From Mumia sp. Pv4-285 (GTDB lineage Bacteria; Actinomycetota; Actinomycetes; Propionibacteriales; Nocardioidaceae), in NCBI RefSeq assembly GCF_041320275.1, contig NZ_CP162023.1, positions 1,054,001 to 1,118,000 of the forward strand: a stretch of DNA of 64,000 nt. The letters run 5' to 3'. The first letter of the stretch is position 1. Every line of letters begins with the position of its first letter. Below the pieces are notes generated by a model that saw only the letters and a list, made by a program, of their open reading frames with translations, did no database searches and was not told where the DNA came from. Position numbers and translations under genes: made by a program. This document shows, piece after piece, positions 42,876 through 63,722 of the stretch.

Positions 42876-42985
42876 CATTCGTTAACCTTTCGGCTGCTTT
42901 GTGGAAAAGCGGCACGAGCGACCCTTCCACCGTGCTTCACTCATGGCTGATGTATCGATCAATCGGGGTGAAAGGCTTGACGGAG

Positions 42986-44404: not shown

Positions 44405-44566
44405 GCGCGGCCCGACGGCCCCACCTTCCGGACTGACGACCACGACCGTGTCGCGGCCTTCGTGGTGCGCGCTCCGTAGGGCTCGCTTACGTTGAAGCTC
44501 TCGGGCCTTCACGAGCGCCGCTCGGCGGCGACACGCGGTGGAGGGCCTGGCGAGCACAGGGGGAAC

Positions 44567-46087: not shown

Positions 46088-46276
46088 CGAGAGCATGGCG
46101 CTCGGATGCGCGAGGGCCACCGCGATACCTGGCAGGTTTGCGTCAGTTGTCCGAGTTCTGACGATCTCTGGTCTTCACCTAGGGCCTCGGATACCGTTCC
46201 CCACCTCGGGTAAAGACGCGTGCCGTTCGCGGCGGATTCTCGGTACGCACCCTCTCTTGCCGCCGCACTGATACTG

Positions 46277-48010: not shown

Positions 48011-48027
48011 CGGACCGTGGCTGAGAG

Positions 48028-48064
48028 GGCCCCGGGAAAGATCGAGAATCGGTCTCCCGGGGCC
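48028..48064 (+). terminator. Hairpin terminator after the GH26-like pair
   Basis: GGCCCCGGGA (48028-48037) pairs with TCCCGGGGCC (48055-48064) around a 17-base loop, and the stem can extend with AGAG/TTCT on the outside. TTCTGCTCTGCTTC follows, a weak pyrimidine tract. Confidence 0.75.
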
Positions 48065-48145
48065 TTCTGCTCTGCTTCAATGCTGGTCAGAGACGAATCG
48101 GGGCGTCGCCGAGCGGAGCCCGCTGACCAGAGGAGGGCGAGGTCG

Positions 48146-49108
48146 ATGGCGAAGCCGCGCACGTTGCTCGTCGCTGCGACCGGCGGCCACCTCGAACAGC
48201 TCTACCGGATCCACGAGCGGATCGTGCCGGAGTCGGGGGACGTCACCTGGGTCACGCACGACGATCCTCAGTCGCGATCGCTGCTGGCTGGCCGGCAGGT
48301 GGAGCTGGTCGACTACGTCCCGCCGCGCGGCTACGCCACGATCGCCCGGATCGCCCCGCACGCGTGGTCGATCATCAGGCGCGGCCGCTTCGACCGCGTC
48401 GTCTCGACCGGGGCCGGCGTCGCGCTGCCGTTCTTCCTCGCCGCCCGCGCCCAGGGCGTCCCGTGCCACTACATCGAGAGCGCAGCGCGCGCGGACGGGC
48501 CGAGCCTGACCGGACGCCTCGTGTCCCGCCTCCCGGGGGTGCGTCTCTACAGCCAGTACGAAAGCTGGTCCGGGGGCCGCTGGAACTACCGCGGCTCGTT
48601 GTTCGACGCCTTCGAGGTGGTCGAGAAGGCAGACGAGCCCATCAGCAAGGTCGTCGTGACGCTCGGCACCATGAGGACGTACGAGTTCCGCCGCCTCGTC
48701 GACCGGCTCGTGACGGTGCTGCCCGAGGTCGTCGACGGTGACGCCCAGGTCCTCTGGCAGGTCGGCGTCACCGACGCGAAGCCGCCGTTCGGCGAGGTCC
48801 ACGCCAACGTCCCCAACGCCGATCTTCGCGCAGCGATCGAGGACGCGGACCTCGTCGTGGCGCACTCGGGCATCGGCTCGGCGATCACCGCGCTCGAGCT
48901 CGGCAAGCGACCGGTCCTCGTGCCCCGCCGCCCTGCCTTCGGCGAGCACGTCGACGACCACCAGGCCTTGATCGCCGGCGAGCTGGGAGCGCGCGACCTC
49001 GCGATCTCGCGCGAGGCGGACGAGCTCACCGCCGACGATCTCCGTACCGCCGCACGCGGGCGTGTCCGCGTCGGCACCCGTCCAGAACCGTTCGCGCTCG
49101 TCGACTGA
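48146..49108 (+). CDS. Fused PssD/PssE-type (Alg14/Alg13-like) glycosyltransferase
   Basis: A 320-residue glycosyltransferase in which the two halves, separate in many EPS loci, are fused. The N-terminal half (1-165) is Alg14/PssD-like with VAATGGHLEQLYRI and SAARADGPSLTGRL; the C-terminal half (170-320) is Alg13/PssE-like, GT28 fold, with VVVTLGTMRTYEFRRLV and the UDP-sugar-binding ADLVVAHSGIGSAITALELG. It likely adds the second sugar, often a glucuronate, to the lipid-linked primer. The UDP-glucose dehydrogenase gene starts 19 bases downstream. Confidence 0.88.
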   Translation: MAKPRTLLVAATGGHLEQLYRIHERIVPESGDVTWVTHDDPQSRSLLAGRQVELVDYVPPRGYATIARIAPHAWSIIRRGRFDRVVSTGAGVALPFFLAARAQGVPCHYIESAARADGPSLTGRLVSRLPGVRLYSQYESWSGGRWNYRGSLFDAFEVVEKADEPISKVVVTLGTMRTYEFRRLVDRLVTVLPEVVDGDAQVLWQVGVTDAKPPFGEVHANVPNADLRAAIEDADLVVAHSGIGSAITALELGKRPVLVPRRPAFGEHVDDHQALIAGELGARDLAISREADELTADDLRTAARGRVRVGTRPEPFALVD

Positions 49109-49127
49109 CGGGCCACAGGAGTCCATC

Positions 49128-50495
49128 ATGAGTCGCACCTCGTCAGACCACCCCGACTCGGGTGTCCAGGTCTGTGTCATCGGCACCGGCTACGTCGGTC
49201 TCACCGCCGGCGCCTGCCTCGCGTACCTCGGCCACCGCGTCACGTGCGCCGACGCGTCGGCGGACCGTGTCGCGGCGCTGCGGCGCGGGACGATCCCGAT
49301 CTACGAGGCGGGGCTCGACGAGCTCGTCGAGGCTGGCGCGTCATCAGGTCGGCTGTCGTTCGTGACCAGCAACCTCGACGCGGTCCACGACGCCGACGTG
49401 GTCTTCCTGTGCCTCCCCACCCCGCAGGACGCCGACGGCAGCGCCGACCTCAGCCGAGTCCTGGCTGTTGCCGCAGAGATCGGCGCCTCCCTCAAGGAGG
49501 GCGCCGTCGTCGTCAACAAGTCGACGGTCCCGGTCGGTACGGCAGCCCGGGTGGCGGAGGCGCTCGGGCGACCTGACGTCCATGTCGTGTCGAACCCGGA
49601 GTTCCTCGCCGAGGGATCGGCCGTGCGTGACTTCCTCAACCCCGACCGCGTGGTCGTGGGGTCTGACGACGCCTCCGCGGCGGAGCGCGTCGCCGCGCTG
49701 TACGCCCCGCTCGACGCGCGCACCGTCGTGACCGACGTCGCCAGTGCCGAGACGATCAAGTACGCGTCCAACGCCTACCTCGCCATCCGACTGACCTTCG
49801 TCAACTCGATGGCCGCCGTGTGCGAGGCGTCCGGGGCGGACATCCGCGCGGTCACCGAGGGGATGGGTGCCGACCGCCGGATCGGCACCGCGTTCCTCAA
49901 GCCGGGTCCCGGCTGGGGTGGCTCGTGCTTCCCCAAGGACACGGCCGCCCTCGTACGAACCTCGGAGGAGCACGGCTTCGACTTCAGCCTGCTCCGCGCG
50001 GCGGTCGACGCGAACGCACAGCACCGGCGCTGGCTGCTCGGCAAGATCGTGGGGGCCGTCGGAGGCGACGTGCGCGGCAGGCGGGTGGCCCTGTGGGGAC
50101 TCACCTTCAAGGCGGGCACCGACGACCTCCGCGACTCGCCCGCGCTCGAGCTGGCTCACGACCTCGTCGCCCTCGGCGCCCAGGTCCGTGCGTACGACCC
50201 GACGGTCACGACCGACGTCGACGGGATCGACGTCGCTCGTTCCGCGCTCGCGGCGTGCGAGGACGCGGACGTCCTGGCGATCGGCACGGAGTGGCCGGAG
50301 TTCTCCGAAGTCGACCTCAGCGAGGTCGCCAGCGCCCTGGCAGGGGACGTCGTCGTCGACTGCCGCAACGTCCTCGACGCGCCCGCCGCGGCAGCCGCGG
50401 GTCTTCTCTACACCGGCGTCGGGCTCCGCGGCGTGGGCGTCGTACCGACCTCGGCTGCCGTCGACGCCGCCCTCGACGGCGGCACGGCGGCCTGA
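49128..50495 (+). CDS. UDP-glucose 6-dehydrogenase family protein
   Basis: A 455-residue UDP-glucose/GDP-mannose dehydrogenase. The NAD loop is VCVIGTGYVGLTAGACLAYLG; NKSTVPVGTA, VSNPEFLAEGSAVRDF and the catalytic Cys in GPGWGGSCFPKDTAAL follow, with the C-terminal LTFKAGTDDLRDSPAL. It oxidises UDP-glucose twice to UDP-glucuronate (or a related uronate), so the polymer of this locus should be acidic. AGGAG precedes ATG 49128. UDP-glucose can come from galU at 1.0 kb. Confidence 0.93.
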   Translation: MSRTSSDHPDSGVQVCVIGTGYVGLTAGACLAYLGHRVTCADASADRVAALRRGTIPIYEAGLDELVEAGASSGRLSFVTSNLDAVHDADVVFLCLPTPQDADGSADLSRVLAVAAEIGASLKEGAVVVNKSTVPVGTAARVAEALGRPDVHVVSNPEFLAEGSAVRDFLNPDRVVVGSDDASAAERVAALYAPLDARTVVTDVASAETIKYASNAYLAIRLTFVNSMAAVCEASGADIRAVTEGMGADRRIGTAFLKPGPGWGGSCFPKDTAALVRTSEEHGFDFSLLRAAVDANAQHRRWLLGKIVGAVGGDVRGRRVALWGLTFKAGTDDLRDSPALELAHDLVALGAQVRAYDPTVTTDVDGIDVARSALAACEDADVLAIGTEWPEFSEVDLSEVASALAGDVVVDCRNVLDAPAAAAAGLLYTGVGLRGVGVVPTSAAVDAALDGGTAA

Positions 50496-50576: not shown

Positions 50577-52427
50577 GTGAGCGTTCCCCGCACCGACGCC
50601 GACGTCGAGTTCTCCGACTACGGATCCATCATCCGTCGTCGGTGGGTTCTCGTGGTTCTCGGCCTGGTCGCCGGTGTGGCTGTCGCGGTTCTCGCGATCG
50701 CCCTCATCCCGAAGACCTACACGTCGACCGCGTCCGTCATGGTGCAGCCCACCGGCCAGGACGGCACCGTGGCCAACGGGCGCACGTCCACCCCGATCAA
50801 CCTCGACACCGAGGCACAGATCGTCAAGTCGACGGTCGTCTCGCAGCAGGTGATCGACGCGCAGGAGAACCCGATCGAGACCGACCCGCGTGCCCTCGCC
50901 AAGCACGTCATGGTCACCGTGCCTCCGAACACGTCCGTCCTCAACATCTCGTTCTCGGCGTCCACGCCGGAGGACGCCCAGGCGGGCGCCGAGCAGTACG
51001 CCGAGACGTACCTCGCGAGCCGCAAGGCTGAGGCGGAGAGCCGCATCGATGCCGAGGCCCGGTCGATCCAGGCCCAGCTCGACACCTTGCAGGCGAGGCT
51101 CAAGGCGCAGTCCCAGCGGATCGCGCGACTGCCCGAGAACTCTCCCGAGCGCGTGTACGAGATCTCCCAGCGCGACCTGCTGGTCGACCAGATCGCGGCA
51201 CTCAACTCCGAGCTGGTCCGGCTCACGTCGACCGAGATCATGCCTGGCGACGTGATCACCGAGGCGCAGACACCGACGACGCCGACGAGTCCCAACATCA
51301 AGATCCTGGGCGCGAGCGGAGTGCTCGCCGGGTTGCTCGCCGGCCTGCTGATCGCCGTGGTGGTCGACCGGGCCGACAAGCGGGTCCGTGACCGTCGTGA
51401 CCTCGAGCGTCTCGGCCTCGACTCGCTGGTCGCCCTCGTCGAGGTGCCTGCCGCGCGCGACGTCGGGGGCGTGGTCGGGACCGGCCGCGGCACGGAGTCG
51501 CTCCGCCAGCTCCGCAACGCGCTGCTCGCACGCATCCCGGAGCAACGAGCCGTCGTCCTCGTCGCGGGAGCGTCCAACGACTCGACCGGGTCAGCCGTGG
51601 CCGTGAGCCTCGCTGCGACGCTCGCGCGCAGCGGCGTCGACGCGCTGCTCGTCTCCGCCAACTCCGTCCACTGCGCGGTCACCGACGTCCTCGGAGACAC
51701 CGATCGTCCCGGCCTCGCCGACATCCTGCACGGCAGGGTCGACGCGCCGAGCGCGATCGTCGACGTGCCGCAGGTCCCGGGTCTGCGGGCGATGTCCGCG
51801 GGTTCCGACGGCTCCTTGTACTCCGAGCTCCTGCAGAGCCACCACGTCAAGACCGTCCTCGGCGACCTGGCAGACCAGGCGTCGGTTCTGGTGGTCGACG
51901 TCGCACCGACCGGAGCCAACGCCGACGCACAGTCGCTCGCCGCGATGGGCGCAGGTGTGCTGGTGGTGGCGAGCGCTCAGCGCACGAACCGCGCCGAGGT
52001 CGTCGACGCGATCGATCAGCTCCGGCACGTCTCGGCGTCGATGCTGGGTGCCGTCGTCGCGGCTGTCCAGCCCGAGCGAGAGGCCAGCGTCGGTGGCCTC
52101 GCGACGATCACCGTCGACGAGGACGACCACGCGCACGGCGCGCACGAGCGCGTCGAGCGGGAGGACGAGGGAGCCGACGAGTCGCTGCTCGTGACGACGC
52201 TGGTCGACGTACCCGCGATCCGCGAGACCGACCTGGGCGACCCTGTGGCGACCGGTGCCCCTGCGGTCGAGGGGGCGGACGGGGTCGACGACGAGCTCGA
52301 GGACGACGAGGACGAGCAGCGTCCCGTGTACATCCACCGCACGGACGCCGAGCGCCCGACCAAGAAGAGCCGCTACTCGTTGTCACGGTCGGGCGCAGCG
52401 TCCCCGCCGGGGCGCGACAACGGCTGA
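50577..52427 (+). CDS. Wzz/Wzc-like chain-length protein with degenerate P-loop
   Basis: A 616-residue protein laid out like an actinobacterial Wzc/CapAB fusion: Wzz domain with helices at about 23-44 and 246-264, a periplasmic coiled coil (145-215), then a cytoplasmic MinD/BY-kinase-like domain (305-500). The P-loop position reads VAGASNDSTGSAVAVSLA (about 329-346), with no lysine, and the Walker B-like segment is VLVVDVAPTGANADA. No tyrosine cluster is found in the long acidic C-terminal tail. It probably controls chain length without kinase activity. AGGAAGG precedes GTG 50577. Confidence 0.85.
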   Translation: MSVPRTDADVEFSDYGSIIRRRWVLVVLGLVAGVAVAVLAIALIPKTYTSTASVMVQPTGQDGTVANGRTSTPINLDTEAQIVKSTVVSQQVIDAQENPIETDPRALAKHVMVTVPPNTSVLNISFSASTPEDAQAGAEQYAETYLASRKAEAESRIDAEARSIQAQLDTLQARLKAQSQRIARLPENSPERVYEISQRDLLVDQIAALNSELVRLTSTEIMPGDVITEAQTPTTPTSPNIKILGASGVLAGLLAGLLIAVVVDRADKRVRDRRDLERLGLDSLVALVEVPAARDVGGVVGTGRGTESLRQLRNALLARIPEQRAVVLVAGASNDSTGSAVAVSLAATLARSGVDALLVSANSVHCAVTDVLGDTDRPGLADILHGRVDAPSAIVDVPQVPGLRAMSAGSDGSLYSELLQSHHVKTVLGDLADQASVLVVDVAPTGANADAQSLAAMGAGVLVVASAQRTNRAEVVDAIDQLRHVSASMLGAVVAAVQPEREASVGGLATITVDEDDHAHGAHERVEREDEGADESLLVTTLVDVPAIRETDLGDPVATGAPAVEGADGVDDELEDDEDEQRPVYIHRTDAERPTKKSRYSLSRSGAASPPGRDNG

Positions 52428-52437
52428 CCTCACCGAC

Positions 52438-53892
52438 ATGAGCGTGACCGGGGCCGTTCCCGCGGGGCAGACCGCGGCGCTCCCGCCCCCACGGCCGCGC
52501 CGGCTGGGCCCCGCCTGGCCGCTGATCGTGCTTCTCGCCGGCTACCCATTGTTCTGGGTGGCCGGGCTGTCGGCCTTCGCGCTCCCGGTGATGGCTGTCC
52601 CCATGGCGGTCATCCTCTATCGTCGGCGCCCGCTCAAGCTCCCGCGCGGCTTCGCCCTGTGGGCGCTCTTCCTCGTCTGGAGCGTGTTCGGAGTGTTCCT
52701 CCTGGGGATCAATCCCCAGGGTTTCGTGCCTGGCGCCGCGGGCGGGCGGCTGTTCGGGTTCGGGATGCGCGAGCTCTCCTACTTCTCGGTCACCATCCTG
52801 CTGCTCTTCATCGGGAACCTGTCCGAGAAGGAGCTTCCGCAGAGCAGGCTCGTACGCCTCCTCGGGGTGTTCTTCGTGACGGTCGTGGCCGGTGGTCTCC
52901 TGGGGATGCTGGTGCCCCAGCTCCAGTTCACGTCGCTCTTCGAGATGTTCCTGCCAGGGTCGATCCGTTCCAACGACTTCGTCCAGAGCCTCGTCCATCC
53001 GCGCGCGGCGCAGGTTCAGGAGCTCCTGACCGACGCGACCCCGCGCCCTGCCGCGCCGTTCAGCTACACGAACGCGTGGGGTTTCCACCTCACGCTGCTC
53101 GGCGTCTGGTTCGTGGTGGCGAGGTTCTTCCTGAAGGGTTCCCGGGCCAAGCTGTTCTCGCTGTTCGTGCTCGTGGCGGGCTTGGTCGTCCTCGTCTACT
53201 CGCTGAACCGTGCGGCGTGGATGGGGGTCGCGGTCGCCGTCGCGTACGTCGCCATCAGGCTCGCGCTCCGCGGACGCCTGGTGATGGTCGCCTCGCTGGT
53301 GTTCATCGGCGCGATCGCCGGTGGTGCCGTGCTGGCCACGCCGCTCGGCGAGGTGGTGAGTGCGCGGCTCGAGAACGGCAAGAGCGACAACATCCGTGCG
53401 TTCACGACCGAGAAGGCGTTCGAGCTCTCGGCGCAGTCCCCGGTGGCCGGCTTCGGCACCACGCGTTCGACGTTCGGGTCGTCCTCGTCGATCGCGGTCG
53501 GCAAGTCCGCACAGTGTCCGGCATGCGGCAACGCCTCCATCGGCATGAACGGCTACTTCTACATGCTGATCGTGACGACCGGGTACGTCGGTGCGGCTCT
53601 GTTCTTCGGTTTCGGCGCCCTCCAGGTGTGGCGCACCCGATCGATATGGTCGCCCGTCGTGGTGGCGGGCAGCACAGTCATTCTCATGACTGGCTTCTAT
53701 GCCTTCTTCTACGATGGTGCGACGTGGCTGCTGGTCCCGTTCGCGACGCTCGGAATCCTGTGGCGTGAGGAGCGGGCAGCAGCAGTAGCCGTTTCCGAGG
53801 GAGTCGAGGGTGTCCGTGGTGGAGTCGAAGGCGTCCCCGTCCGGCGGCAGGGCGACGGTCGAGCGACTCTTCCCGCACCGTCTCGCGACTGA
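52438..53892 (+). CDS. Wzy/O-antigen ligase-like polymerase
   Basis: A 484-residue polytopic membrane protein with about eleven helices and one large extracytoplasmic loop (about 300-365) holding RLENGKSDNIRAFTTEKAFE and SPVAGFGTTRSTFG, the pattern of the O-antigen ligase/polymerase (Wzy/WaaL) family, whose large loop carries the catalytic Arg and a G-x-G. A pair of cysteines (QCPACGN) is unusual. It likely polymerises lipid-linked repeat units. The hydrophilic C-terminus overlaps the next gene by 83 bases. Confidence 0.85.
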   Translation: MSVTGAVPAGQTAALPPPRPRRLGPAWPLIVLLAGYPLFWVAGLSAFALPVMAVPMAVILYRRRPLKLPRGFALWALFLVWSVFGVFLLGINPQGFVPGAAGGRLFGFGMRELSYFSVTILLLFIGNLSEKELPQSRLVRLLGVFFVTVVAGGLLGMLVPQLQFTSLFEMFLPGSIRSNDFVQSLVHPRAAQVQELLTDATPRPAAPFSYTNAWGFHLTLLGVWFVVARFFLKGSRAKLFSLFVLVAGLVVLVYSLNRAAWMGVAVAVAYVAIRLALRGRLVMVASLVFIGAIAGGAVLATPLGEVVSARLENGKSDNIRAFTTEKAFELSAQSPVAGFGTTRSTFGSSSSIAVGKSAQCPACGNASIGMNGYFYMLIVTTGYVGAALFFGFGALQVWRTRSIWSPVVVAGSTVILMTGFYAFFYDGATWLLVPFATLGILWREERAAAVAVSEGVEGVRGGVEGVPVRRQGDGRATLPAPSRD

Positions 53893-55015
53893 CCCCGCGT
53901 CCGCCTCCGGTGGCCCGGAGAGCCGGTCCTTCGTCGCGATCCCGAGCGAGGCGAACGCCCGCCTGATCCTGCCGGCGGACCCGCGCCTCGCCGCGGTGGC
54001 GCTCCACCGCGCGCGTCGCCCGGTCAACCGTCGGAGCCGGGTCACGACCACGGCCGTGAGCGCACTCCTGAGGCTCGGCGCCGGCAGACTGCTTCCCGGT
54101 CGGATCCAGGCCGACGGCACGGACTCGATCGAGACCCTCCTCGCCGACGTCGTCAGATCGCCCGTGAGGATCGGGATCTTCCTCGGGCCTCCGCGAGCGA
54201 ACCGCAAGCCGGTCCTGCAGGTCCTCAGCCCCGACGGTGAGCTGCTCGCCATCGCCAAGGTCGGCACCAACCCGCTCACGGCGAGGCTGGCGACGGCAGA
54301 GGCCGAGGCGCTCCGACTCCTGGCAGCGGCACCGCTGCGCCACACCGTCGTCCCGACCCTGCTGGGCCTGCACACCTGGCACGACCTCGTCGTGATGGTC
54401 CAGTCGCCGCTCCCGATCTGGGAGCAGGGCATGCGGGACGACCCCGCACTGCGACGGCGGGCGATGCTCGAGATCGCGACCTCGCAGGGCGTGACCCGGC
54501 TTCCCTGGTCCGACTCCGAGCACCGGCGTGCGGTCGACCTGACCATCGAGCGCATCACAGAGCCTGTGGTCGCGGGTCTGATCCGTCGGGGCGCCGACCA
54601 CGTGCTCGAGAGCGCTCGCCAGGTCGACCTCGGGGCCTGGCACGGCGACCTGACCGCCTGGAACCTCGCCTGCGCCGGCGACCAGGTGCTGGTCTGGGAC
54701 TGGGAGCGCTTCTCGACAGGGGTCCCGGTCGGGTTCGATCTCCTGCACCACCACTTCCTCCCGTCGCTCAAGGGCGAGCCGTCCGCGCGCGCCGGAGCCG
54801 GAGCCGCGCTCCTCGACGACTCGCCCGGCCTCCTGCGCGGGGTCGTCGACGACCCGGAGGACGCCCGCACCGTCGCGCTCCTCTATCTGCTCGAGATCGG
54901 CGGCCGGTTCGCCGTCGACGGCCAGGCCCGGACGGGGACCGCGGGCGGCGACGTCGTCGAGTGGCTCCGCCCCGTCATCGACCTGCTCGACCGAAGGAAG
55001 GCCACCCATGGCTGA
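53810..55015 (+). CDS. Phosphotransferase (APH/choline-kinase fold) in the EPS locus
   Basis: A 401-residue protein with a protein-kinase-like fold. The catalytic loop is GAWHGDLTAWNLACAGDQVL and the metal site is VWDWERFSTGVP; the N-terminal lobe has LAIAKVGTNPLTARLATAEAEAL with the ATP-binding Lys and Glu. Relatives phosphorylate small molecules such as sugars, choline or aminoglycosides; in this setting a sugar or lipid substrate is more likely than a drug. The start is uncertain (GTG 53810, 53816 or 53819) and overlaps the upstream gene. It overlaps the next sulfotransferase by eight bases. Confidence 0.78.
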   Translation: MSVVESKASPSGGRATVERLFPHRLATDPASASGGPESRSFVAIPSEANARLILPADPRLAAVALHRARRPVNRRSRVTTTAVSALLRLGAGRLLPGRIQADGTDSIETLLADVVRSPVRIGIFLGPPRANRKPVLQVLSPDGELLAIAKVGTNPLTARLATAEAEALRLLAAAPLRHTVVPTLLGLHTWHDLVVMVQSPLPIWEQGMRDDPALRRRAMLEIATSQGVTRLPWSDSEHRRAVDLTIERITEPVVAGLIRRGADHVLESARQVDLGAWHGDLTAWNLACAGDQVLVWDWERFSTGVPVGFDLLHHHFLPSLKGEPSARAGAGAALLDDSPGLLRGVVDDPEDARTVALLYLLEIGGRFAVDGQARTGTAGGDVVEWLRPVIDLLDRRKATHG

Positions 55016-55877
55016 ACGCGGACCGATCGCCCAGTGGATCCACGGACGTGCGCGCAGCGCCAGCGCCGTCGCGGGGAGGATGACGTCCTCCGTCCGCATG
55101 ACGCCGCAGTTCCTCGTCGTCGGCGCCCAGCGGTGCGGCACCACCTCGCTGTACAAGACGCTGGTCCAGCACCCCGACGTCATGCCCGCGGGACTGCACA
55201 AGGGGATCCACTACTTCGACACCGCGTACGGCAAAGGCTGGTCGTGGTACCGCGGCCATTTCCCGACGACGTACGCCGCCCGGCGCAAGGAGCGTCGCAC
55301 CGGCACTCCGCCCATCACGGGGGAGGCCAGCCCGTACTACATGTTCCACCCGCTCGCGCCGGCCCGGATCGCGCAGGACCTCCCTGAAGCGCGGGTGATC
55401 GTGATGCTCCGCGACCCGGTGGAGCGTGCGTACTCGGCGTACACCCACGAGCGTGCCCGCGGGTTCGAGCCCGAGACCTTCGAGAAGGCCCTCGCCCTCG
55501 AGAGCCAGCGCCTGGCCGGGGTCGAGCTCGCGTTCGAGCGCGACCCGCTCCACCACTCGCTCGCGCACCAGCACAACGCGTACGTCGCCCGGGGCCAGTA
55601 CGTCGACCAGCTGGAAGCACTCGAGAAGGCGCTCGGACGTGACCGGATGCTGGTGGTGGACAGCGACGACCTGTTCGCGGACTTCGCCCCGCAGTTCCGT
55701 GAGGTGACCGAGTTCCTCGGGTTGAACGCCTGGCTGCCGGAGTCGTTCCAGCAGCGCAACGCTCGGCCGCGCCGCGGGCTGGAGGGTGAGCTGCGCGAGC
55801 GGCTCGAGGCGCACTTCGAGCCGTACGACCGTCGGCTGGCGCAGTGGTGGGGGCGCACGCCGAGCTGGCGCCGATGA
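55008..55877 (+). CDS. Sulfotransferase (heparan N-sulfotransferase-like)
   Basis: A 289-residue PAPS-dependent sulfotransferase. The 5'-phosphosulfate loop is VVGAQRCGTTSLYKTL (about 37-52), the 3'-phosphate site is MLRDPVERAYSAYTHE (133-148), with ITGEASPYYMFHP between, as in the NDST/HS-sulfotransferase group acting on polysaccharides. It should sulfate the repeat unit or polymer of this locus. Overlaps with the genes on both sides (8 and 4 bases) put it firmly in the operon. Confidence 0.92.
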   Translation: MAERGPIAQWIHGRARSASAVAGRMTSSVRMTPQFLVVGAQRCGTTSLYKTLVQHPDVMPAGLHKGIHYFDTAYGKGWSWYRGHFPTTYAARRKERRTGTPPITGEASPYYMFHPLAPARIAQDLPEARVIVMLRDPVERAYSAYTHERARGFEPETFEKALALESQRLAGVELAFERDPLHHSLAHQHNAYVARGQYVDQLEALEKALGRDRMLVVDSDDLFADFAPQFREVTEFLGLNAWLPESFQQRNARPRRGLEGELRERLEAHFEPYDRRLAQWWGRTPSWRR

Positions 55878-57433
55878 CCGAACGACCGCTGACCGACCAG
55901 GGATCGAAAGAGGCATCGTCCGGTGGCTCCGACATCTCCGGTCTCGCTCGTCGCGGTCTGCTGAGCCTCGGCGGCGCCGGTGTCAGCGCAGTCGCCAGCT
56001 TCGTGCTCATCGTCGTCGTCACCCGCAGCTTCGGGAAGGAGACGGCGGGCTACCTCTTCTCGGCGACGTCGCTGTTCGTGATCGCCGAGAGCCTGTGCGC
56101 GCTCGGGACGGCGACCGGCATGGTCTACTTCATCGCTCGGCTGCGCGCGCTCGGGCGCGGCGACGCGGTGAGGGCCCTCATCGGGGTCGCGGTGCGACCG
56201 GTCGCGATCGCCTCGGTCCTGGCCGGGACAGGCCTCTTCCTCGCTGCTCCCGCCCTCGCCGAACAGCTGGGCTCGGGTGGCTCGACAGCGCAGGCCACCC
56301 AGTTCATCAGGGTCGTCGCCGTGTTCCTCCCGTTCGCGACCTGCTACGACGTCTTCATCGCGGCCACGCAGGGCTTCCACACGATGACGCCGACCGTCGC
56401 GCTCGAGAAGGTGGGCCGCCCTGTCATCCAGCTCGGGGCACTGGCCGTCGCGGGAGCCTTCGGTCTCGCCTGGCTCCTCCCGTACGCCTGGGCTGCGCCG
56501 TACCTCGTCGCGCTGGTGCTGGTCGCTGTCTGGCTGGCGCGTCTCGTCCGCCACGACGCTGCCGCCGAGAACGCCACGAGCGACCGAGCCGTCACCACGG
56601 GGGCGTTCTGGCGCTACACGGCCCCGCGCGGCATCGCGAGCGCCGCCCAGCTGAGCCTGCAGAGGCTCGACATCGTCCTCGTCGCGCTCTACCTCGGTCC
56701 GGCGGAGGCCGCGATCTACACGGCAGCGACGCGGTTCGTCGTGCTCGGCCAGCTCGGCAGCCAGGCCGTCGCGCTCGCGGTCCAGCCGAAGTTCGCGGAG
56801 CTCCTCGCTCACGACGACCGCGTCAGCGCCCGACAGGTCTACCGGACGACCACGGCGTGGGTGATGGCCGTGACGTGGCCGGTGCACCTCGTCGTCGCCG
56901 TCCTCGCTCCGGTGGTCCTCAGGATCTTCGGTCCCGGGTACGACAGCGGCTGGTCGGTCGTCGTCGTCCTCGCACTGACGATGCTCTTCGCGACGTCCTG
57001 CGGCATGGTGACGATGCTCCTGGTGATGGCGGGGAAGACGACCTGGAACCTTCTCAACGTGCTGGTGGCGCTCACGGCGAACCTGGTGCTCAACCTCACC
57101 CTGATCCCGGTCTGGGGCATCTTCGGCTCGGCGGTGGCGTGGTCGGTCGCGATCGCGTTGAGCAACGCGCTCCCGCTGTTCCAGGTGAGACGGGCGCTCG
57201 GTCTCGACCCGTTCGGTCGCGGTTCGGTCGCCGTGGCCGGCCTCGCGACACTCTGCTTCGCGGCCGTGCCCGGCCTCGGATGGCTGCTCGGCGGTGATCC
57301 GGTCCTCCTGGTCGGACTCACGGTGGTGGGGGGCGTCCTCTACGCGGTCGGGCTCTGGTTCCTCCGCGGCGTGCTCGAGCTGGACGGCCTCGTCGGGTCG
57401 ATCGCGGGGCGGCTGCGGCCACGGCGGGTCTAG
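55874..57433 (+). CDS. Polysaccharide flippase (Wzx-like, MOP superfamily)
   Basis: A 519-residue protein with about 12-14 helices in the MOP/Wzx pattern, starting GLARRGLLSLGGAGVSAVASF. Internal motifs include LYLGPAEAAIYTAATRFVVLG and TTAWVMAVTWPVHLVVAVLAP. It should flip lipid-linked repeat units across the membrane for polymerisation by the Wzy-like protein. ATG 55874 overlaps the sulfotransferase stop (ATGA). Confidence 0.9.
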   Translation: MTERPLTDQGSKEASSGGSDISGLARRGLLSLGGAGVSAVASFVLIVVVTRSFGKETAGYLFSATSLFVIAESLCALGTATGMVYFIARLRALGRGDAVRALIGVAVRPVAIASVLAGTGLFLAAPALAEQLGSGGSTAQATQFIRVVAVFLPFATCYDVFIAATQGFHTMTPTVALEKVGRPVIQLGALAVAGAFGLAWLLPYAWAAPYLVALVLVAVWLARLVRHDAAAENATSDRAVTTGAFWRYTAPRGIASAAQLSLQRLDIVLVALYLGPAEAAIYTAATRFVVLGQLGSQAVALAVQPKFAELLAHDDRVSARQVYRTTTAWVMAVTWPVHLVVAVLAPVVLRIFGPGYDSGWSVVVVLALTMLFATSCGMVTMLLVMAGKTTWNLLNVLVALTANLVLNLTLIPVWGIFGSAVAWSVAIALSNALPLFQVRRALGLDPFGRGSVAVAGLATLCFAAVPGLGWLLGGDPVLLVGLTVVGGVLYAVGLWFLRGVLELDGLVGSIAGRLRPRRV

Positions 57434-57491: not shown

Positions 57492-58268
57492 ATGTCCAGT
57501 CGCGCCACCCGCTCAGCTCTCTCGTACTCGCTCGTCGGTCTCGCGCTGCTCATCCTGGTCACCAAGGTGCACGCGATGGCCCTCCCCAGCGGCATCGCCT
57601 CGCAGATCGGGCACAACAGCGAAGCACTCGCCTTCGCCCTGCTCGTGTGCGCCGAGATCCAGTTCTTCCGGCCGTGGGCGCTCGGCCGTCGATTGGCGTG
57701 GCTGTGGACGGTGCTCGGAGCCGGGATCCTGTTCGCGGCAGCGTACGGGCTGCTCCAGACGGGCTGGACGTCGTCGGTGGTGACGCTCAACGAGCCCATC
57801 GTTGGCGCAGGCTTCGTGCTCCTCTACATCATGATCCCGCGGCCGTTCCGGTTCGCGCCGCTCGTCTCGCTCGCCATCTTGGCGTTCATCGTGATCTTCT
57901 TCGACACGGCGTTCGTCCTCGACCAGGCCGAGAGCCTCGTGCCGTTCCTCATCGCGCCGCTCGCCCTGGACGTGTTCGACCGGACGATCCTCGAGCCGGA
58001 CCAGCCCGACCGCCCGGTGCTGAGGGTGGTCTGGATCGGAGTGCTCGCCGTCGTCGGCCTGGCCTTCATGGCCTCCGCCCCGTGGGCGCGAGAGGACCTG
58101 GAGGGCTGGTTCCGGTACGGCATCGACTACGGCCAGCGCGCGTCCGAGGCGTACTGGGGCTGGATCCTCGTGCACGCCTACTTCGCCTACGTCCTCGGTC
58201 GCCTCTGGCACCCCGCCTCCGGACGGACCGCCTCGACGACTCGAGCGGATCGCCTCGAGGCGCGATGA
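57492..58268 (+). CDS. Polytopic membrane protein of unknown function in the EPS locus
   Basis: A 258-residue membrane protein with about seven helices (SYSLVGLALLILVTKVHAM; LWTVLGAGILFAAAYGLLQ; IVGAGFVLLYIMIPRPF; LVSLAILAFIVIFFDTAF; VVWIGVLAVVGLAFMASAP; WILVHAYFAYVLGRLWHP). It shows no family motif I recognise. ATG 57492 lies seven bases after TACGCT (57479-57484), so it likely has a leaderless promoter in the middle of the locus. Its stop overlaps the ATG of the sulfotransferase-glycosyltransferase fusion (ATGA), which suggests a joint task. Confidence 0.75.
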   Translation: MSSRATRSALSYSLVGLALLILVTKVHAMALPSGIASQIGHNSEALAFALLVCAEIQFFRPWALGRRLAWLWTVLGAGILFAAAYGLLQTGWTSSVVTLNEPIVGAGFVLLYIMIPRPFRFAPLVSLAILAFIVIFFDTAFVLDQAESLVPFLIAPLALDVFDRTILEPDQPDRPVLRVVWIGVLAVVGLAFMASAPWAREDLEGWFRYGIDYGQRASEAYWGWILVHAYFAYVLGRLWHPASGRTASTTRADRLEAR

Positions 58269-60205
58269 CGTTCTCACGACGAGCCGACCGCAGGACCGGC
58301 GGCGGGCGGATCCCCGTGCTCTACGTCGGCGGCCTCGGCAGGAGCGGATCCACACTTCTCGAGCGGTCGGTGGCCCAGCTTCCCGGTGTCTGCGGCCTCG
58401 GGGAGACCGTCTACATGTGGGAGCGCGGCCTCGTCAACGACGAGCGTTGCGGGTGCGGCCAGCCGTTCTCCGCGTGCGGGTTCTGGACCGCGGTGGGCGA
58501 CGCCGCGTTCGGTGGCTGGGAGAACGTCGACGCCGAGCGCCTCGCGACCCTCGCCCGGACGGTGGACGACGTGAAGCACGTCCCGAGGATGTTCCTCGGC
58601 CGTGGTGGTCGTCAGTTCGCCGAGGCGGCCGAGGAGTACGTCTCCTTCTACGAACGCCTGTACGCCGGTGTTCGCGACGTGACGGGCTGCGAGGTGATCG
58701 TGGACTCGTCCAAGATCACCTCCTTGGCGTACCTGCTCAACCGTTCCCAGCGCGTCGACCTGCGCATGGTCCACATCCTGCGTGACCCGAGGGCGGTCGC
58801 GTACGCGTGGACGAAGGTCGTCAGGCGCCCGGAGATCACCGGCTCCACCGCGTACATGCCGCGCTACTCGCCGGCGTACATGGGCTGCCTCTACAGCGGC
58901 CACCACGTCCTCCTCGAGGCGCTGCGCCTGCGCGGCGTCCCCACCATGAACCTGCGCTACGAGGACTTCGCCGACGAGCCGCTGCCGGCGGTGCGGGCCG
59001 TGGCCGAGTTCGCCGGGCTGACCTGGGACCGCGATGCCGTGTTCGGTGCCGACGACCACACGCTCGACCTCGGCACGGTCCACACGGCGAGCGGCAACCC
59101 GTCCCGGTTCCAGACCGGCGAGGTCGCCGTACGCCGCGACGAGTCGTGGCGCCGGGCGATGCCGCGGCGTCAGCAGCTGGTCGTCAGCGCGCTCACCGCA
59201 CCGCTGGCCCTGGCGTACGGCTACCGCCTCCGCCCCCCGGCGCCCGTGCCGGAGCCGACGCCGACGGGTCCGTCTGCGCTCGCCGAGCTCGACGTCTGGC
59301 CGTCGGTGACAGTCGTCGTCCCCACCCACGACCGGCCGGAGATGATGCGGCGGGCCGTGCGCTCCGTCGTCGAGCAGGACTACCCGGGCCGCATCGACGT
59401 GGTGGTGGTCTTCGACAAGGCCGATCCGGACACCTCGCTCGTCAGCGACGCGGCCGACCGCCCGGTGTCGGTGGTGCGCAACTCGCGGACACCCGGCCTC
59501 GCGGGCGCCCGCAACACAGGGATCCTCGGCTCCCGGTCCGAGCTGGTGGCCTTCCTCGACGACGACGACCACTGGGTCGCCGACAAGCTGTCACGGCAGG
59601 TGCGCGCACTCGCCGCCGAGCCCACCGCGCAGTTCGCGACGACCGCCATGGCGATCGAGTACGAGGACTCGACGATCGTCCGTCTCGCCGGCAAGACGCG
59701 GGTCACCCATCCCGACCTGGTGCGCTCGCGGCTCGCGATGCTGCACTCGTCGTCGTTCGTGGCACGACGCGATGCTCTCGTCGGTCCGATCGGGCTGATC
59801 GACGAGACCATCCCGCGCAGCATGGCCGAGGACTGGGACATCCTGCTCCGTGCCGCTCGCCAGCACCCGATCGTGCACCTCGACGAGCCGCTCGTGCGGG
59901 TGCGGTGGGGCCCCACCTCGTACTTCGCCGACCAGTGGCAGACCCGCAACGAGGCACGCCTCTGGATGCTCGAGCACCACCCCGAGCTGCTCGAGGACCG
60001 CGTCGGTGCCGGACTGACGTACGGCAAGCTCGCGTTCGGCTCGGCGATGCTGGGTCGACGCCGCGACGCGCTCGGCTGGAGCCGCCGCGCGGTGCGTGCC
60101 AACTGGCGCGAACCGCGTACGGTCCTGGCTCTTCTCGTGGTCGCTCGACTGGCCAAGGGCCAGTGGATCGTGGACCAGCTGAACCGGCGCGGACGCGGAA
60201 TCTGA
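58265..60205 (+). CDS. Sulfotransferase-glycosyltransferase (GT2) fusion protein
   Basis: A 646-residue two-domain protein. Residues 15-320 are a sulfotransferase: P-loop VGGLGRSGSTLLERSV (21-36), a Cys-rich CGCGQPFSACGFW (62-74), IVDSSKITSLAYLL and the 3'-phosphate site ILRDPRAVAYAWTK (171-184). A 25-residue Pro-rich linker leads to a GT-A family 2 domain (346-600): TVVVPTHDRPEMMRRAVRSV, PGLAGARNTGILGS, the DxD-type AFLDDDDHW (429-437) and AEDWDILLRA with the base-bearing ED. It could add a sugar and sulfate it. No frame break or stop lies between the domains. Confidence 0.88.
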   Translation: MTFSRRADRRTGGGRIPVLYVGGLGRSGSTLLERSVAQLPGVCGLGETVYMWERGLVNDERCGCGQPFSACGFWTAVGDAAFGGWENVDAERLATLARTVDDVKHVPRMFLGRGGRQFAEAAEEYVSFYERLYAGVRDVTGCEVIVDSSKITSLAYLLNRSQRVDLRMVHILRDPRAVAYAWTKVVRRPEITGSTAYMPRYSPAYMGCLYSGHHVLLEALRLRGVPTMNLRYEDFADEPLPAVRAVAEFAGLTWDRDAVFGADDHTLDLGTVHTASGNPSRFQTGEVAVRRDESWRRAMPRRQQLVVSALTAPLALAYGYRLRPPAPVPEPTPTGPSALAELDVWPSVTVVVPTHDRPEMMRRAVRSVVEQDYPGRIDVVVVFDKADPDTSLVSDAADRPVSVVRNSRTPGLAGARNTGILGSRSELVAFLDDDDHWVADKLSRQVRALAAEPTAQFATTAMAIEYEDSTIVRLAGKTRVTHPDLVRSRLAMLHSSSFVARRDALVGPIGLIDETIPRSMAEDWDILLRAARQHPIVHLDEPLVRVRWGPTSYFADQWQTRNEARLWMLEHHPELLEDRVGAGLTYGKLAFGSAMLGRRRDALGWSRRAVRANWREPRTVLALLVVARLAKGQWIVDQLNRRGRGI

Positions 60206-60302
60206 TCGGACTACCGCAATTCGCGGACAGCGTGACCCCGCGGCCGTTTGAATGGTCGGACGGGGTGCCACGGGGGCACCGCCCGTAGCTCCTGGAGATG
60301 CC

Positions 60303-63300
60303 ATGCTCGCGACCTTCCGACGGACCTCCGTCGTGGTGATCAGCGCAGTTCTTGCTGCTGCCACCGTCCAGCTCGCTCTCGGATCGGCAACGACTGCCGC
60401 CCCGAACCACACGCGAGTCGTCTCGGAGGTGCCTCCTTCCTGGACCCCGGCGATCAACAACGGGTCCGTCCGTGGCATCGCGCAGGTCGGGGCGACGACG
60501 GTGGCGATCGGCGACTTCACCAGTGTCACCCCGTCGGGCGGGTCCAGCGTCGCCCGCAACGGCGCCGTCGCCTTCAACGCGACCGCCGGCGGACTCGTGG
60601 GCGGCTTCAACCCCAGCTTCAACGGCGCTGTCAACGATGTGATCCCCGGACCGACCGACACCACGGTCTACGTCGCCGGGTCCTTCACCCAGGTGAACGG
60701 CACCGCGCGCAGCCGCATCGCACTCCTGAACCTCAGCAACGGATCTCTGGTCGCCTCGTTCGTGCCCCCCAACATCAACGGTGCCGTCAACAGCATCGCC
60801 AAGAACGGCAACCGCATCTACGTCGGCGGCAACTTCACGGCCGCCGCGAACACGACGCACGGCGGCCTCGCGATGATCAACGCCACGACGGGCGCCATCG
60901 ACCAGTCGTTCGGCAATGACGTGGCCGAACGCCACAACGACACAGGCAGCGGCGCGCAGGGAGCGATCGGAGTCCGTGACCTGGAGGTCACGCCCGACGG
61001 GTCGAAGCTGGTCGCGATCGGCAACTTCAAGAAGGTCGACGGGCTCAACCGTGACCAGGCGGTCGTCATCAACACCACTGGCGCGGCATCGCAGGTCGCC
61101 CCCGACTGGCGCACCCGCCGCTACGAGCCGTACTGCTTCAACTGGGCCTTCGACACGTACGTGCGCGGCGTGAGCATCTCGCCGGACGGCTCCTACTTCG
61201 TCGTCGCCTCGACCGGCGGGCCGAGTGGCGGCACGCTCTGCGACACCGCAGCACGCTTCGAGTTCGCCTCGACCGGCGACGACATCCAGCCCACCTGGAT
61301 CAACTACTCCGGTGGAGACACGCTCTGGGGCGTCGAGGTCACCGAGTCAGCGGTCTACGTCGGCGGCCACCAGCGCTGGATGAACAACAGCCTCGCCGGC
61401 GACTCCGCCGGACCCGGTGCCGTGCCGCGTCCCGGCCTGGCGGCCCTGGACACCGAGACGGGTGCACCGTTGAAGTGGAACGCCGCACGCAATCCGCGCG
61501 GCGCCGCGGTCTACGCGTTGGAAGCGACCCCTGCGGGTCTCTGGATGGGCAGCGACACCGAGTACGTCGGGGCGAACTACGCCTACCGTCGTCCCCGGCT
61601 CGCGTTCTTCCCGCATGCGACCGGTGCCGTCAAGGCGTCGGACTCGATCGCCGGTCTGCCCGGCACGGCCTACGTCGGTGGCTCCACGGCGACGTCCAAC
61701 GGCAACATTCTCTACCGCGTGAACGCGGGCGGCAGCACGGTCGGCACGGTCGACGCCGGGCCCGACTGGGAAGCCGACGACCAGGGCTCGAGCCCGTACC
61801 GCAACGAGGGCAGCAACGCCGCCGGCTGGGGCAGCGGCTCGACCACGGACAACACCGTGCCGACGACCACCCCGAACGCCGTCTTCGACTCGGAGCGGTG
61901 GTCACCCTCCGACGATCCGGCGATGAACTGGGCGTTCGCAGCTCCCAACGGCGCTCCGCTGCAGGTCCGGCTGTTCTTCTCGAACCGTTGCAGCTGCACC
62001 TCGGGTGCAGGGCAGCGTGCCTTCGACGTGTCGATCGACGGGACCAAGCGTCTCGACAACTTCGACATCGTCGCGGCGGTCGGTGACCAGCGCGGCACGA
62101 TGCGGGCCTTCAACATCACCAGCGACGGGACGGTCAACATCGACTTCTCCCACGAGGTCGAGAACCCGCTGATCAACGCGATCGAGATCGTCCGCACCGA
62201 CCAGGCACCGCCGGTCCCGGCGGGCAACTCGCTGAGGTCGATCCCGCTGACGACGAGTGGTGCCAGCCCAGCGGTCGAGGTGTCGACGCAAGGCATGGAC
62301 TGGTCAGCGGTCCGCGGCGCGTTCGTCGCCGGCGGCAAGCTCTGGTACGGCCGCACCAACTCGCTGTTCTACTCCCGCACCATCAGCGCGAACGGGACGC
62401 TCGGTCCGGAGGTCACGATCGACCCGTACAACGACCCCCTGTGGGCCGGTGTCTCCGCGGGCAACAACACGGGAACGTACGACGGCAACCGGGTCGGGCT
62501 GTACTCACAGCTGCCGGGCGTGACGAGCATGGCCTACAGCCAGGGTCGCCTCTACTACACACGCTCGGGCGACGCGAACCTCTACTGGCGCTGGTTCAGC
62601 ACCGACAGCGGGATCATCGGCTCCGACACGTTCACGGCCAACGGCGGCCGGTCGTGGAACGGCACGAGCGGGATGTTCTTCGCGAACGACGCGCTCTACT
62701 TCGTCTCGACCAACGGCAACCTCAACCGCATCGGGGTGTCCGCGGGCACTCCGAGCGGCGCGGTCACCGTGGTCGACGGTCCGGGGATGAGCGGCAACAA
62801 CTGGCGTGGCCGTGCGGTGTACCTGACGGGTGCGACCGCGCTCCCGCCGAACGTCAACCCGACGGCCGACTTCACGTCGTCCTGCGTCGACCTGACCTGC
62901 ACCTTCACGGGGGCCGCTACGGACTCCGACGGGACGATCGCCGGCTACGCGTGGGACTTCGGTGACGGTGACGTCGCGACCGGCGAGGTCGCGAACCACA
63001 CCTTCGACGATCCCGGCACGTACTCCGTCAAGGTCGTCGCCACCGACAACCGTGGAGGGACGGGTGAGCGGACCAGGCAGGTCCAGGTGACCGACACTCC
63101 GAACCCGTCCGGGCCGATCACCTTCGTGAACGAGTCGACAGCTGCCGTCAACACGGCCAGCCCGTCTGTCGCGATTCCGGCGGGTGTCCAGGCAGGCGAC
63201 ACGTTGCTGCTCACGGCGAGCGTCAACAACGCGCCCGCCATCAGCACTCCTGCGGGCTGGACGCTGGTCGACAGCGCGGCGACCACCGGACTCACGACGT

Positions 63301-63722
63301 CGGTGTGGACCCGTGAGGCGACCGCCTCGGACGCCGGCAACAACGTGACCGTCGGACTCAGCGCCATCGCCAAGACCACCCTCGCGATCACCGCGTACCG
63401 AGGTGCCGGCGGCGTCGGCGCGACGGCGACGAGCTCGGACGCCGCGACGGCGTCGCACACGACTCCGTCGATCGCCGTGCCCACCGGGTCGTGGGTCGTC
63501 TGGTTCTGGGCCGACAAGTCCCCGAACACCGCCGACTGGACGCCGGGTGCCGGCGTGACGCAGCGCGCCGAGGTCGTGTCCTCGGGCTCGGGTCGGGTGT
63601 CGACGTTCGTCGGCGACACGGCCGGTCCCAGGAGCGGCAACGTCGCCGGTACGACGTCGGTGACCGACGTCGCGAGCAGCCGGGGCGTGAGCTGGTCGAT
63701 CGTCCTCGAACCGAGCTCGTAA
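60303..63722 (+). CDS. Large secreted beta-propeller-like protein with malectin and PKD domains
   Basis: A 1,139-residue exported protein. The signal peptide (about 1-33) is followed by propeller-like repeats at about 40-470 (VYVAGSFTQVNG; IYVGGNFTAAAN; LVAIGNFKKVDG), a malectin-type domain at about 500-640 (VFDSERWSPSDDPAMNWAF...VRLFFSNRC), a second propeller-like part (650-850), a PKD domain (855-945, YAWDFGDGDVATGEVANHTF) and a C-terminal beta domain (950-1,139). Such proteins bind or organise surface polysaccharide. GGAG is close to ATG 60303. A lipoprotein gene begins one base after its stop. Confidence 0.85.
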   Translation: MLATFRRTSVVVISAVLAAATVQLALGSATTAAPNHTRVVSEVPPSWTPAINNGSVRGIAQVGATTVAIGDFTSVTPSGGSSVARNGAVAFNATAGGLVGGFNPSFNGAVNDVIPGPTDTTVYVAGSFTQVNGTARSRIALLNLSNGSLVASFVPPNINGAVNSIAKNGNRIYVGGNFTAAANTTHGGLAMINATTGAIDQSFGNDVAERHNDTGSGAQGAIGVRDLEVTPDGSKLVAIGNFKKVDGLNRDQAVVINTTGAASQVAPDWRTRRYEPYCFNWAFDTYVRGVSISPDGSYFVVASTGGPSGGTLCDTAARFEFASTGDDIQPTWINYSGGDTLWGVEVTESAVYVGGHQRWMNNSLAGDSAGPGAVPRPGLAALDTETGAPLKWNAARNPRGAAVYALEATPAGLWMGSDTEYVGANYAYRRPRLAFFPHATGAVKASDSIAGLPGTAYVGGSTATSNGNILYRVNAGGSTVGTVDAGPDWEADDQGSSPYRNEGSNAAGWGSGSTTDNTVPTTTPNAVFDSERWSPSDDPAMNWAFAAPNGAPLQVRLFFSNRCSCTSGAGQRAFDVSIDGTKRLDNFDIVAAVGDQRGTMRAFNITSDGTVNIDFSHEVENPLINAIEIVRTDQAPPVPAGNSLRSIPLTTSGASPAVEVSTQGMDWSAVRGAFVAGGKLWYGRTNSLFYSRTISANGTLGPEVTIDPYNDPLWAGVSAGNNTGTYDGNRVGLYSQLPGVTSMAYSQGRLYYTRSGDANLYWRWFSTDSGIIGSDTFTANGGRSWNGTSGMFFANDALYFVSTNGNLNRIGVSAGTPSGAVTVVDGPGMSGNNWRGRAVYLTGATALPPNVNPTADFTSSCVDLTCTFTGAATDSDGTIAGYAWDFGDGDVATGEVANHTFDDPGTYSVKVVATDNRGGTGERTRQVQVTDTPNPSGPITFVNESTAAVNTASPSVAIPAGVQAGDTLLLTASVNNAPAISTPAGWTLVDSAATTGLTTSVWTREATASDAGNNVTVGLSAIAKTTLAITAYRGAGGVGATATSSDAATASHTTPSIAVPTGSWVVWFWADKSPNTADWTPGAGVTQRAEVVSSGSGRVSTFVGDTAGPRSGNVAGTTSVTDVASSRGVSWSIVLEPSS

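Follow-up and report, generated by a model that had tools for sequence, protein, structure and literature searches.

We analyzed a window of 64,000 nucleotides (nt) from Mumia sp. Pv4-285 (contig NZ_CP162023.1, positions 1,054,001 to 1,118,000), in which the forward strand carries a gene that unites a sulfotransferase and a family 2 glycosyltransferase (GT2) in one polypeptide. Coordinates are given as positions within this window, while labels such as L134 denote related loci fetched for comparison. The gene (58265-60205, forward strand) forms one open frame, starting with an ATG at 58265, ending with a stop codon at 60203-60205 and encoding 646 amino acids (aa) with no internal stop. More specifically, the sulfotransferase half (aa 1-322, 58265-59230) closes with YGYRL and is followed by a Pro-rich linker of 22 residues, RPPAPVPEPTPTGPSALAELDV (aa 323-344, 59231-59296). 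The GT2 half (aa 345-646, 59297-60202) then opens with WPSV. The original prediction of a single-chain fusion, joined by a Pro-rich linker without a stop, is thus borne out by one frame of 646 codons with two Pfam domains. At its 5' end, the fusion shares 4 nt (ATGA, 58265-58268) with the end of an upstream membrane gene, so that its ATG and the stop codon of that gene overlap.

Both domains were recognized in the whole protein above the curated Pfam cut-offs. Sulfotransfer_3 (PF13469) matched with an E-value of 1.6e-10 and 42.1 bits (cut-off 27), and Glycos_transf_2 (PF00535) with an E-value of 3.7e-21 and 76.2 bits (cut-off 23.3). When the sulfotransferase half was searched in isolation, the PF13469 match rose to 44.5 bits (E 2.8e-11). 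The GT2 half matched 19 NCBIfam models, all of them below their own cut-offs. An AlphaFold2 model of the sulfotransferase half alone reached a mean predicted local distance difference test (pLDDT) score of 83.5 and a predicted template modeling (pTM) score of 0.85. Its best solved matches in Foldseek are two sulfotransferases, the olefin synthase domain 4gox and TPST2, with TM-scores of about 0.5 and differing substrates. The glycosyltransferase half matched GT-A enzymes, with AvpGT (9jma) as the best hit (E 8.5e-13). According to these models, the two halves are predicted to fold as a sulfotransferase and a GT-A enzyme.

Relatives of the two halves are widespread. Of 197 genomes from the family, 166 matched one or both halves at an E-value of 1e-3, many of these matches being weak and covering the GT2 part only. 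At 1e-30, the scan of the class (394 genomes) gave 85 genomes with a match and that of the phylum (396 genomes) gave 68, and each of the three counts includes the source genome. For closer comparison, 58 related loci (L033-L041, L065, L094-L141) were picked from the best matches, so that shares among them are not population frequencies. Both halves are present in 44 of the 58 loci. Most of these 44 also carry relatives of other genes from the window, including the second sulfotransferase (40), the Wzy-like polymerase (37), the protein encoded at 53810-55015 (here called protein 53810; 35), the Wzx-like flippase (32) and a glycosyltransferase family 28 (GT28)-like enzyme (32), and these counts were unchanged once overlapping matches were removed. 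Furthermore, 33 loci have Wzy, protein 53810 and the second sulfotransferase among their best matches, and in 30 of them the three genes follow one another in this order on the same strand.

The search for this domain architecture and its distribution, which the original prediction had proposed, yielded eight fused loci including the window, set against 31 split pairs in which the GT2 match lies downstream of the sulfotransferase on the same strand and within 400 nt. Besides the window, the fused loci comprise six family genomes (L099-L104, 36-41% identity in each half) and one genome of another class (L134, 42%). The fusion is therefore present in at least 7 of the 197 family genomes, with frames checked. 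A stop-free match across both halves was found for the window only, among the matches listed, in the class scan (394 genomes), and for the window and genome G799 only in the phylum scan (396 genomes). Fused counts from the genome scans are minima, since fusions with long linkers read as two matches; frames were verified in the fetched loci. In L134 (607-3752), the fused gene comes immediately after another sulfotransferase from the same family, and similar tandem copies occur in L136 and L139.

Among the 31 split adjacent pairs, the start codon of the glycosyltransferase gene lies in a 4-bp overlap with the sulfotransferase stop codon in 24. By set, this arrangement accounts for 21 of 26 pairs (exceptions L034, L035, L114, L118 and the masked L131) and for 3 of 5 pairs (exceptions L135 and L138), and it is found in all eight split pairs of the deep group that also contains six fusions. 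One unfused pair (L114, 8733-10580) has its sulfotransferase and GT2 in phase, with a single stop codon between them. In L140, the GT2 precedes the sulfotransferase, and this locus was counted as apart. Matches also occurred in 337 plasmid records, one of which (Nonomuraea) covers at least 80% of the query with a split adjacent pair; the other 14 among the best 15 of the 337 are sulfotransferase-only matches from Sinorhizobium. The two plasmid stretches that were fetched are unannotated. A lone sulfotransferase relative (L144, 4971-5906, 30% identity) lies on a 1.7 Mb plasmid of Sinorhizobium meliloti, and no match to other cluster genes was found within the 10.9 kb fetched around it.

To place the fusions on the phylogeny, trees were built from each half alone and from both halves concatenated, leaving out the glycosyltransferase row of L041 (161 aa) for its length. 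On the glycosyltransferase tree, where 7 of 49 rows are fused, the fused state requires four changes, at least three of them forced, and on the sulfotransferase tree, where 7 of 45 rows are fused, it requires four changes, all forced. The concatenated tree, built from 39 rows of adjacent or fused pairs of which 8 are fused, gives five changes, all forced by starred branches. A fusion inherited only once was rejected on all three alignments, with approximately unbiased (AU) test p-values for a single fused clade of 1.2e-85 (concatenated), 3.9e-5 (glycosyltransferase alone) and 1.3e-7 (sulfotransferase alone). Parsimony does not separate fusion from fission, and an ancestral fusion followed by several fissions would need an equal number of changes. 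We judge this scenario unlikely, as split pairs with the 4-bp overlap occur in each of the two deep groups, and for the same reason the ancestor probably consisted of separate, overlapping genes.

As a control, neighboring genes with a match were scored for a shared open frame wherever both lay on the same strand of one of the 58 loci, with the window excluded. Sulfotransferase-GT2 neighbors share one frame in 7 of 38 pairs, GT28-sulfotransferase neighbors in 6 of 17 (L119, L125, L129, L131, L140 and L141) and GT28-GT2 neighbors in 2 of 3 (L123 and L124). No shared frame was found between protein 53810 and the second sulfotransferase (0/32), Wzy and protein 53810 (0/30) or the second sulfotransferase and Wzx (0/17), which amounts to 0/79 in total, nor in any of 24 other pair types, each represented by at most 10 pairs. 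Pfam searches, run on seven of the eight GT28 fusions and excluding L131, whose sulfotransferase is partly masked, found Glyco_tran_28_C together with Sulfotransfer_3 in L119 (14106-15839, reverse strand), L125 (4620-6284, reverse), L129 (2010-3521, reverse), L140 (2362-4335, reverse) and L141 (525-2207, forward), and together with Glycos_transf_2 in L123 and L124. Both sulfotransferase and GT2 domains were likewise found in L134. The fused GT28 part is related to the C-terminal part of the window gene at 48017-49108 and, in the fusions with the sulfotransferase, is PssE-like. Each of the three possible pairings among the sugar-adding and sulfating enzymes thus occurs as a fusion, and we read GT28, sulfotransferase and GT2 as a putative three-enzyme module that fuses repeatedly.

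Because fusions recur and the gene pairs are conserved, the sulfotransferase and the GT2 appear to share a job, which suggests that the sugar and sulfate steps work together. The repeated joining could instead be neutral, with enzymes of the same operon fused by chance and their steps uncoupled. Adjacent genes with a 4-bp overlap fuse easily, the fused share of the family is small, and both halves are also found apart. In addition, the control ignores relatedness and the extent of gene overlap, and two of the three zero-count pair types include membrane proteins. However, the same pair has been joined in each of the two deep groups as well as in another class, and only sugar-adding and sulfating enzymes fuse with one another, while three other frequent neighbor pairs show no fusion at all. 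This pattern in the control weakens the neutral explanation, which we consider unlikely.

The motifs named in the original prediction were all located, namely GRSGST (aa 25-30, 58337-58354) and RDPRAVAYAW (aa 173-182) in the sulfotransferase half and DDDD (aa 432-435, 59558-59569) and ED (aa 522-523, 59828-59833) in the glycosyltransferase half. We take GRSGST to be the P-loop motif that binds 3'-phosphoadenosine 5'-phosphosulfate (PAPS), and RDPRAVAYA (58781-58807) to be the 3'-phosphate-binding motif, in which an Arg and a Ser are expected and whose last position is Ala in the window. DDDD is presumably a DxD-type nucleotide-sugar and metal motif, and ED presumably a functional motif of the glycosyltransferase. 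Conservation was assessed in alignments of 45 sulfotransferase rows and 49 glycosyltransferase rows, both including the window. All 45 sulfotransferase rows retain R26, S27, G28, T30, G46-E47, C62, C64, C71, R173, H273 and G277, and G25 is present in 44. DDDD, W437, K441 and ED are invariant in all 49 glycosyltransferase rows. The three cysteines form a triplet of the pattern CxC-x6-C (aa 62-71, 58448-58477), a possible metal site.

It is conceivable that the sulfotransferase half of the fusion is degenerate, keeping a structural or targeting role only, and that the second, separate sulfotransferase (55008-55877) carries out the sulfation. This half sits on a long branch (0.88) and departs from near-invariant residues, with A181 replacing Ser (41/45 rows), Y210 replacing Trp (44/45) and D102 replacing Arg (42/45). 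Nevertheless, it has kept the P-loop, G46-E47, the Cys triplet, R173-D174, H273 and G277-P279, and Ala at position 181 is shared by the rows of L125, L129 and L131, making up four Ala rows with the window. We regard a degenerate half as quite improbable.

The junction itself could be false if an indel, for example in the run of six C at 59233-59238, or a lost stop had joined separate genes during sequencing or assembly. The nearest relatives of both halves are separate genes, most split pairs have the sulfotransferase and GT2 in differing frames, and the junction holds not only the C6 run but also a GTGA (59306-59309) that resembles a stop/start overlap. Against this, the codon bias of the linker is present in the fusion frame only. 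The third-codon-position GC content (GC3) is high in this frame throughout the junction, the GC content by codon position is typical along the linker, and a codon-usage model derived from 19 further window genes gave log-odds over 59233-59306 of +3.8 nats for the fusion frame against -8.2 and -4.0 for the other two. Furthermore, WPSV (from 59297) lies upstream of the first post-linker stop in the other frames (59307), and WPxV marks the start of the glycosyltransferase core in 10 of 48 other rows, split and fused. A start at the GTGA would therefore truncate the first strand of the glycosyltransferase; because this GTGA lies within that conserved strand, we take it as chance rather than as a relic of an old junction. 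The source genome (4.65 Mb, 99.1% complete) consists of one contig, and seven further fused loci come from other genomes. A hidden gene boundary, which the original prediction had named among its possible refutations, is unlikely from GC3 and codon usage of the assembled sequence, since codon usage favors the fusion frame through the linker, and an artefact is very improbable. As a whole, sequence analysis confirms 58265-60205 as a true fusion, predicted to carry both enzymes in one chain.

The fusion lies near the end of a run of forward-strand genes that extends from an initiating sugar-phosphate transferase (42899-44404; PF02397, E 3e-66) through Wzx and the membrane gene. The transferase is followed by two tandem CBM4_9 plus GH5-like proteins identified by Pfam (44492-48010, forward), the second of which has relatives in 15 of the 58 loci. 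Next come a GT28-like glycosyltransferase of the WelK/PssDE type (48017-49108, forward; PF04101; NF046028 with E 1.2e-37, below its cut-off) and a UDP-glucose/GDP-mannose dehydrogenase (49062-50495, forward; PF03721, PF00984 and PF03720), which probably supplies UDP-glucuronic acid. A Wzz protein with a tyrosine-autokinase-like domain (50577-52427, forward; PF02706, TIGR01007 below its cut-off) precedes the Wzy-like polymerase (52435-53892, forward), whose PF04932 match (E 8.7e-7, 29.3 bits) falls slightly below the cut-off of 31.7. Protein 53810 (53810-55015, forward) had no match in Pfam or NCBIfam at an E-value of 0.01 and may be called kinase-like by position only, as an analogue of WpsI; its relatives occupy the place of the kinase-like WpsI and occur in 36 of the 58 loci. 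The second sulfotransferase (55008-55877, forward; PF00685, E 4.4e-16) and the Wzx-like flippase (55844-57433, forward; PF01943) complete this part of the cluster. Downstream of the fusion, a protein with beta-propeller, malectin and PKD domains (60252-63722, Pfam) has relatives in 14 of the 58 loci and may bind the polymer.

Between Wzx and the fusion lies a gene for a small membrane protein of 258 aa with five hydrophobic segments (57492-58268, forward), which had no match in Pfam or NCBIfam at an E-value of 0.01. Its overlap with the fusion makes co-translation of the two genes plausible. The suggestion that this gene places the enzyme at the membrane is not supported, as relatives were found in only 4 of the 58 loci at an E-value of 1e-6 (three of them at 1e-8). 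The relatives in L094, L095 and L098 adjoin the Wzz gene, with about 8 kb between them and the sulfotransferase gene, and the one in L100 is on the strand opposite the fused gene, at a distance of about 1.4 kb.

The cluster combines Wzx, a Wzy-like polymerase with its match just under the cut-off, Wzz, an initiating transferase and at least one sulfotransferase, which outlines a Wzx/Wzy pathway for a predicted exopolysaccharide with uronic acid and sulfate. A gene for adenosine 5'-phosphosulfate (APS) kinase, which is required for PAPS, is present elsewhere in the source genome. We propose that the fusion combines a PAPS-dependent carbohydrate sulfotransferase with a GT2, both serving one Wzx/Wzy pathway for a sulfated acidic exopolysaccharide, and assign this reading a probability of about 0.7. 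On the cytoplasmic face, GT28 and GT2 enzymes would add sugars to an undecaprenyl-linked repeat unit, with the GT2 half extending the lipid-linked unit and the sulfotransferase half sulfating one added sugar from PAPS in the cytoplasm, prior to flipping. Wzx would then flip the sulfated unit and Wzy would polymerize it, while the second sulfotransferase may act at another position. GT28, sulfotransferase and GT2 could act as a physical module. The ancestral sulfotransferase and GT2 genes, with their 4-bp overlap, would have been translated together, and fusion would fix their ratio at 1:1. Both activities would be held together if the chain stays whole, and direct hand-over between them is a guess. 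The link between the fusion and repeat-unit assembly that the original prediction made is supported as well.

Several observations weigh against this proposal, in addition to the long branch and altered residues of the sulfotransferase half and the control counts, which take no account of relatedness. Pairing is not obligatory, as the 49 glycosyltransferase rows comprise 26 adjacent, 16 apart and 7 fused. The nearest relatives of the two fused halves differ, the glycosyltransferase half grouping with L097 and L098, where the sulfotransferase was not found in the stretch or lies on the other strand. The AlphaFold2 model of the whole fusion (pLDDT 76.9, pTM 0.54) does not give a reliable packing of the two halves. 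Finally, in the wps-1 cluster of Actinoplanes missouriensis, passages of the published account describe a mild mutant of the sulfotransferase gene wpsB and a severe mutant of the GT2 gene wpsA, so that not all later steps there depend on sulfation (PMC13390465).

Known systems provide partial counterparts of the proposed pathway. In N-deacetylase/N-sulfotransferase (NDST), a sulfotransferase is fused to another glycan-modifying enzyme, although that partner is a deacetylase and not a glycosyltransferase. The original prediction knew of no characterized example, and no sulfotransferase-GT2 fusion appeared among the papers listed by searches of the open-licence literature, although subscription papers may describe one. 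A close counterpart is wps-1, where the parts of the paper that describe the cluster list Wzz, Wzy, a kinase-like protein, a heparan-sulfate-type sulfotransferase and Wzx as WpsK, WpsJ, WpsI, WpsH and WpsG (PMC13390465). Compared by description, the window has the same order of Wzz, Wzy, protein 53810, sulfotransferase and Wzx, with protein 53810 lacking a kinase match. Both clusters also hold a sulfotransferase and a GT2 together. The WpsB sulfotransferase adjoins the WpsA GT2 as a separate protein, and sulfation is not proven there according to the same passages (PMC13390465), whereas the window has the two enzymes fused and placed after Wzx. Furthermore, wps-1 as described contains GT26, GH26, methyltransferase and DUF4262 genes, while in the window a small membrane gene separates Wzx from the fusion and a GT28-like gene lies upstream. 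Deletion of wpsA is described as leading to squashed sporangia, and deletion of wpsB to normal-looking sporangia with about tenfold fewer spores released (PMC13390465). If WpsA and WpsB are counterparts of the two halves, the GT2 would by analogy be essential to the unit and this sulfate a decoration. The synechan (Xss) cluster of Synechocystis sp. PCC 6803 resembles the window in its Wzx/Wzy pathway and its two sulfotransferases, and the Xss polymer is sulfated; it differs in that XssA, XssE and eight glycosyltransferases are described there as separate genes (PMC8205485, PMC13125312).

Sulfated polysaccharides are of value and are considered rare among bacteria. Statements in papers from 2021 and 2026 assign them to cyanobacteria alone and name actinomycetes as a possible but unproven source (PMC8205485, PMC13390465), and the relevant parts of two other papers report sulfated capsules for marine Vibrio and Cobetia (PMC11641403, PMC11766843). 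What appears to be new here is the single-chain form of an enzyme pair that is usually encoded by two neighboring genes. The most interesting aspect is that repeated fusion is confined, in these loci, to sugar-adding and sulfating enzymes. Since the fusions point to which sulfotransferase pairs with which glycosyltransferase, they may aid the assignment of sulfation sites as well as engineering. More tentatively, and with somewhat less than even odds, a widespread actinobacterial module of GT28, sulfotransferase and GT2 may couple sugar addition and sulfation on the lipid-linked unit. Its members would then fit together closely enough to have fused in every pairing, here as a single sulfo-glycosyltransferase, and production of sulfated exopolysaccharides would be much commoner in the phylum than the single candidate cluster that we found reported suggests. 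The fusion gene and its relatives thereby offer concrete candidates for sulfated polysaccharides across Actinobacteria.

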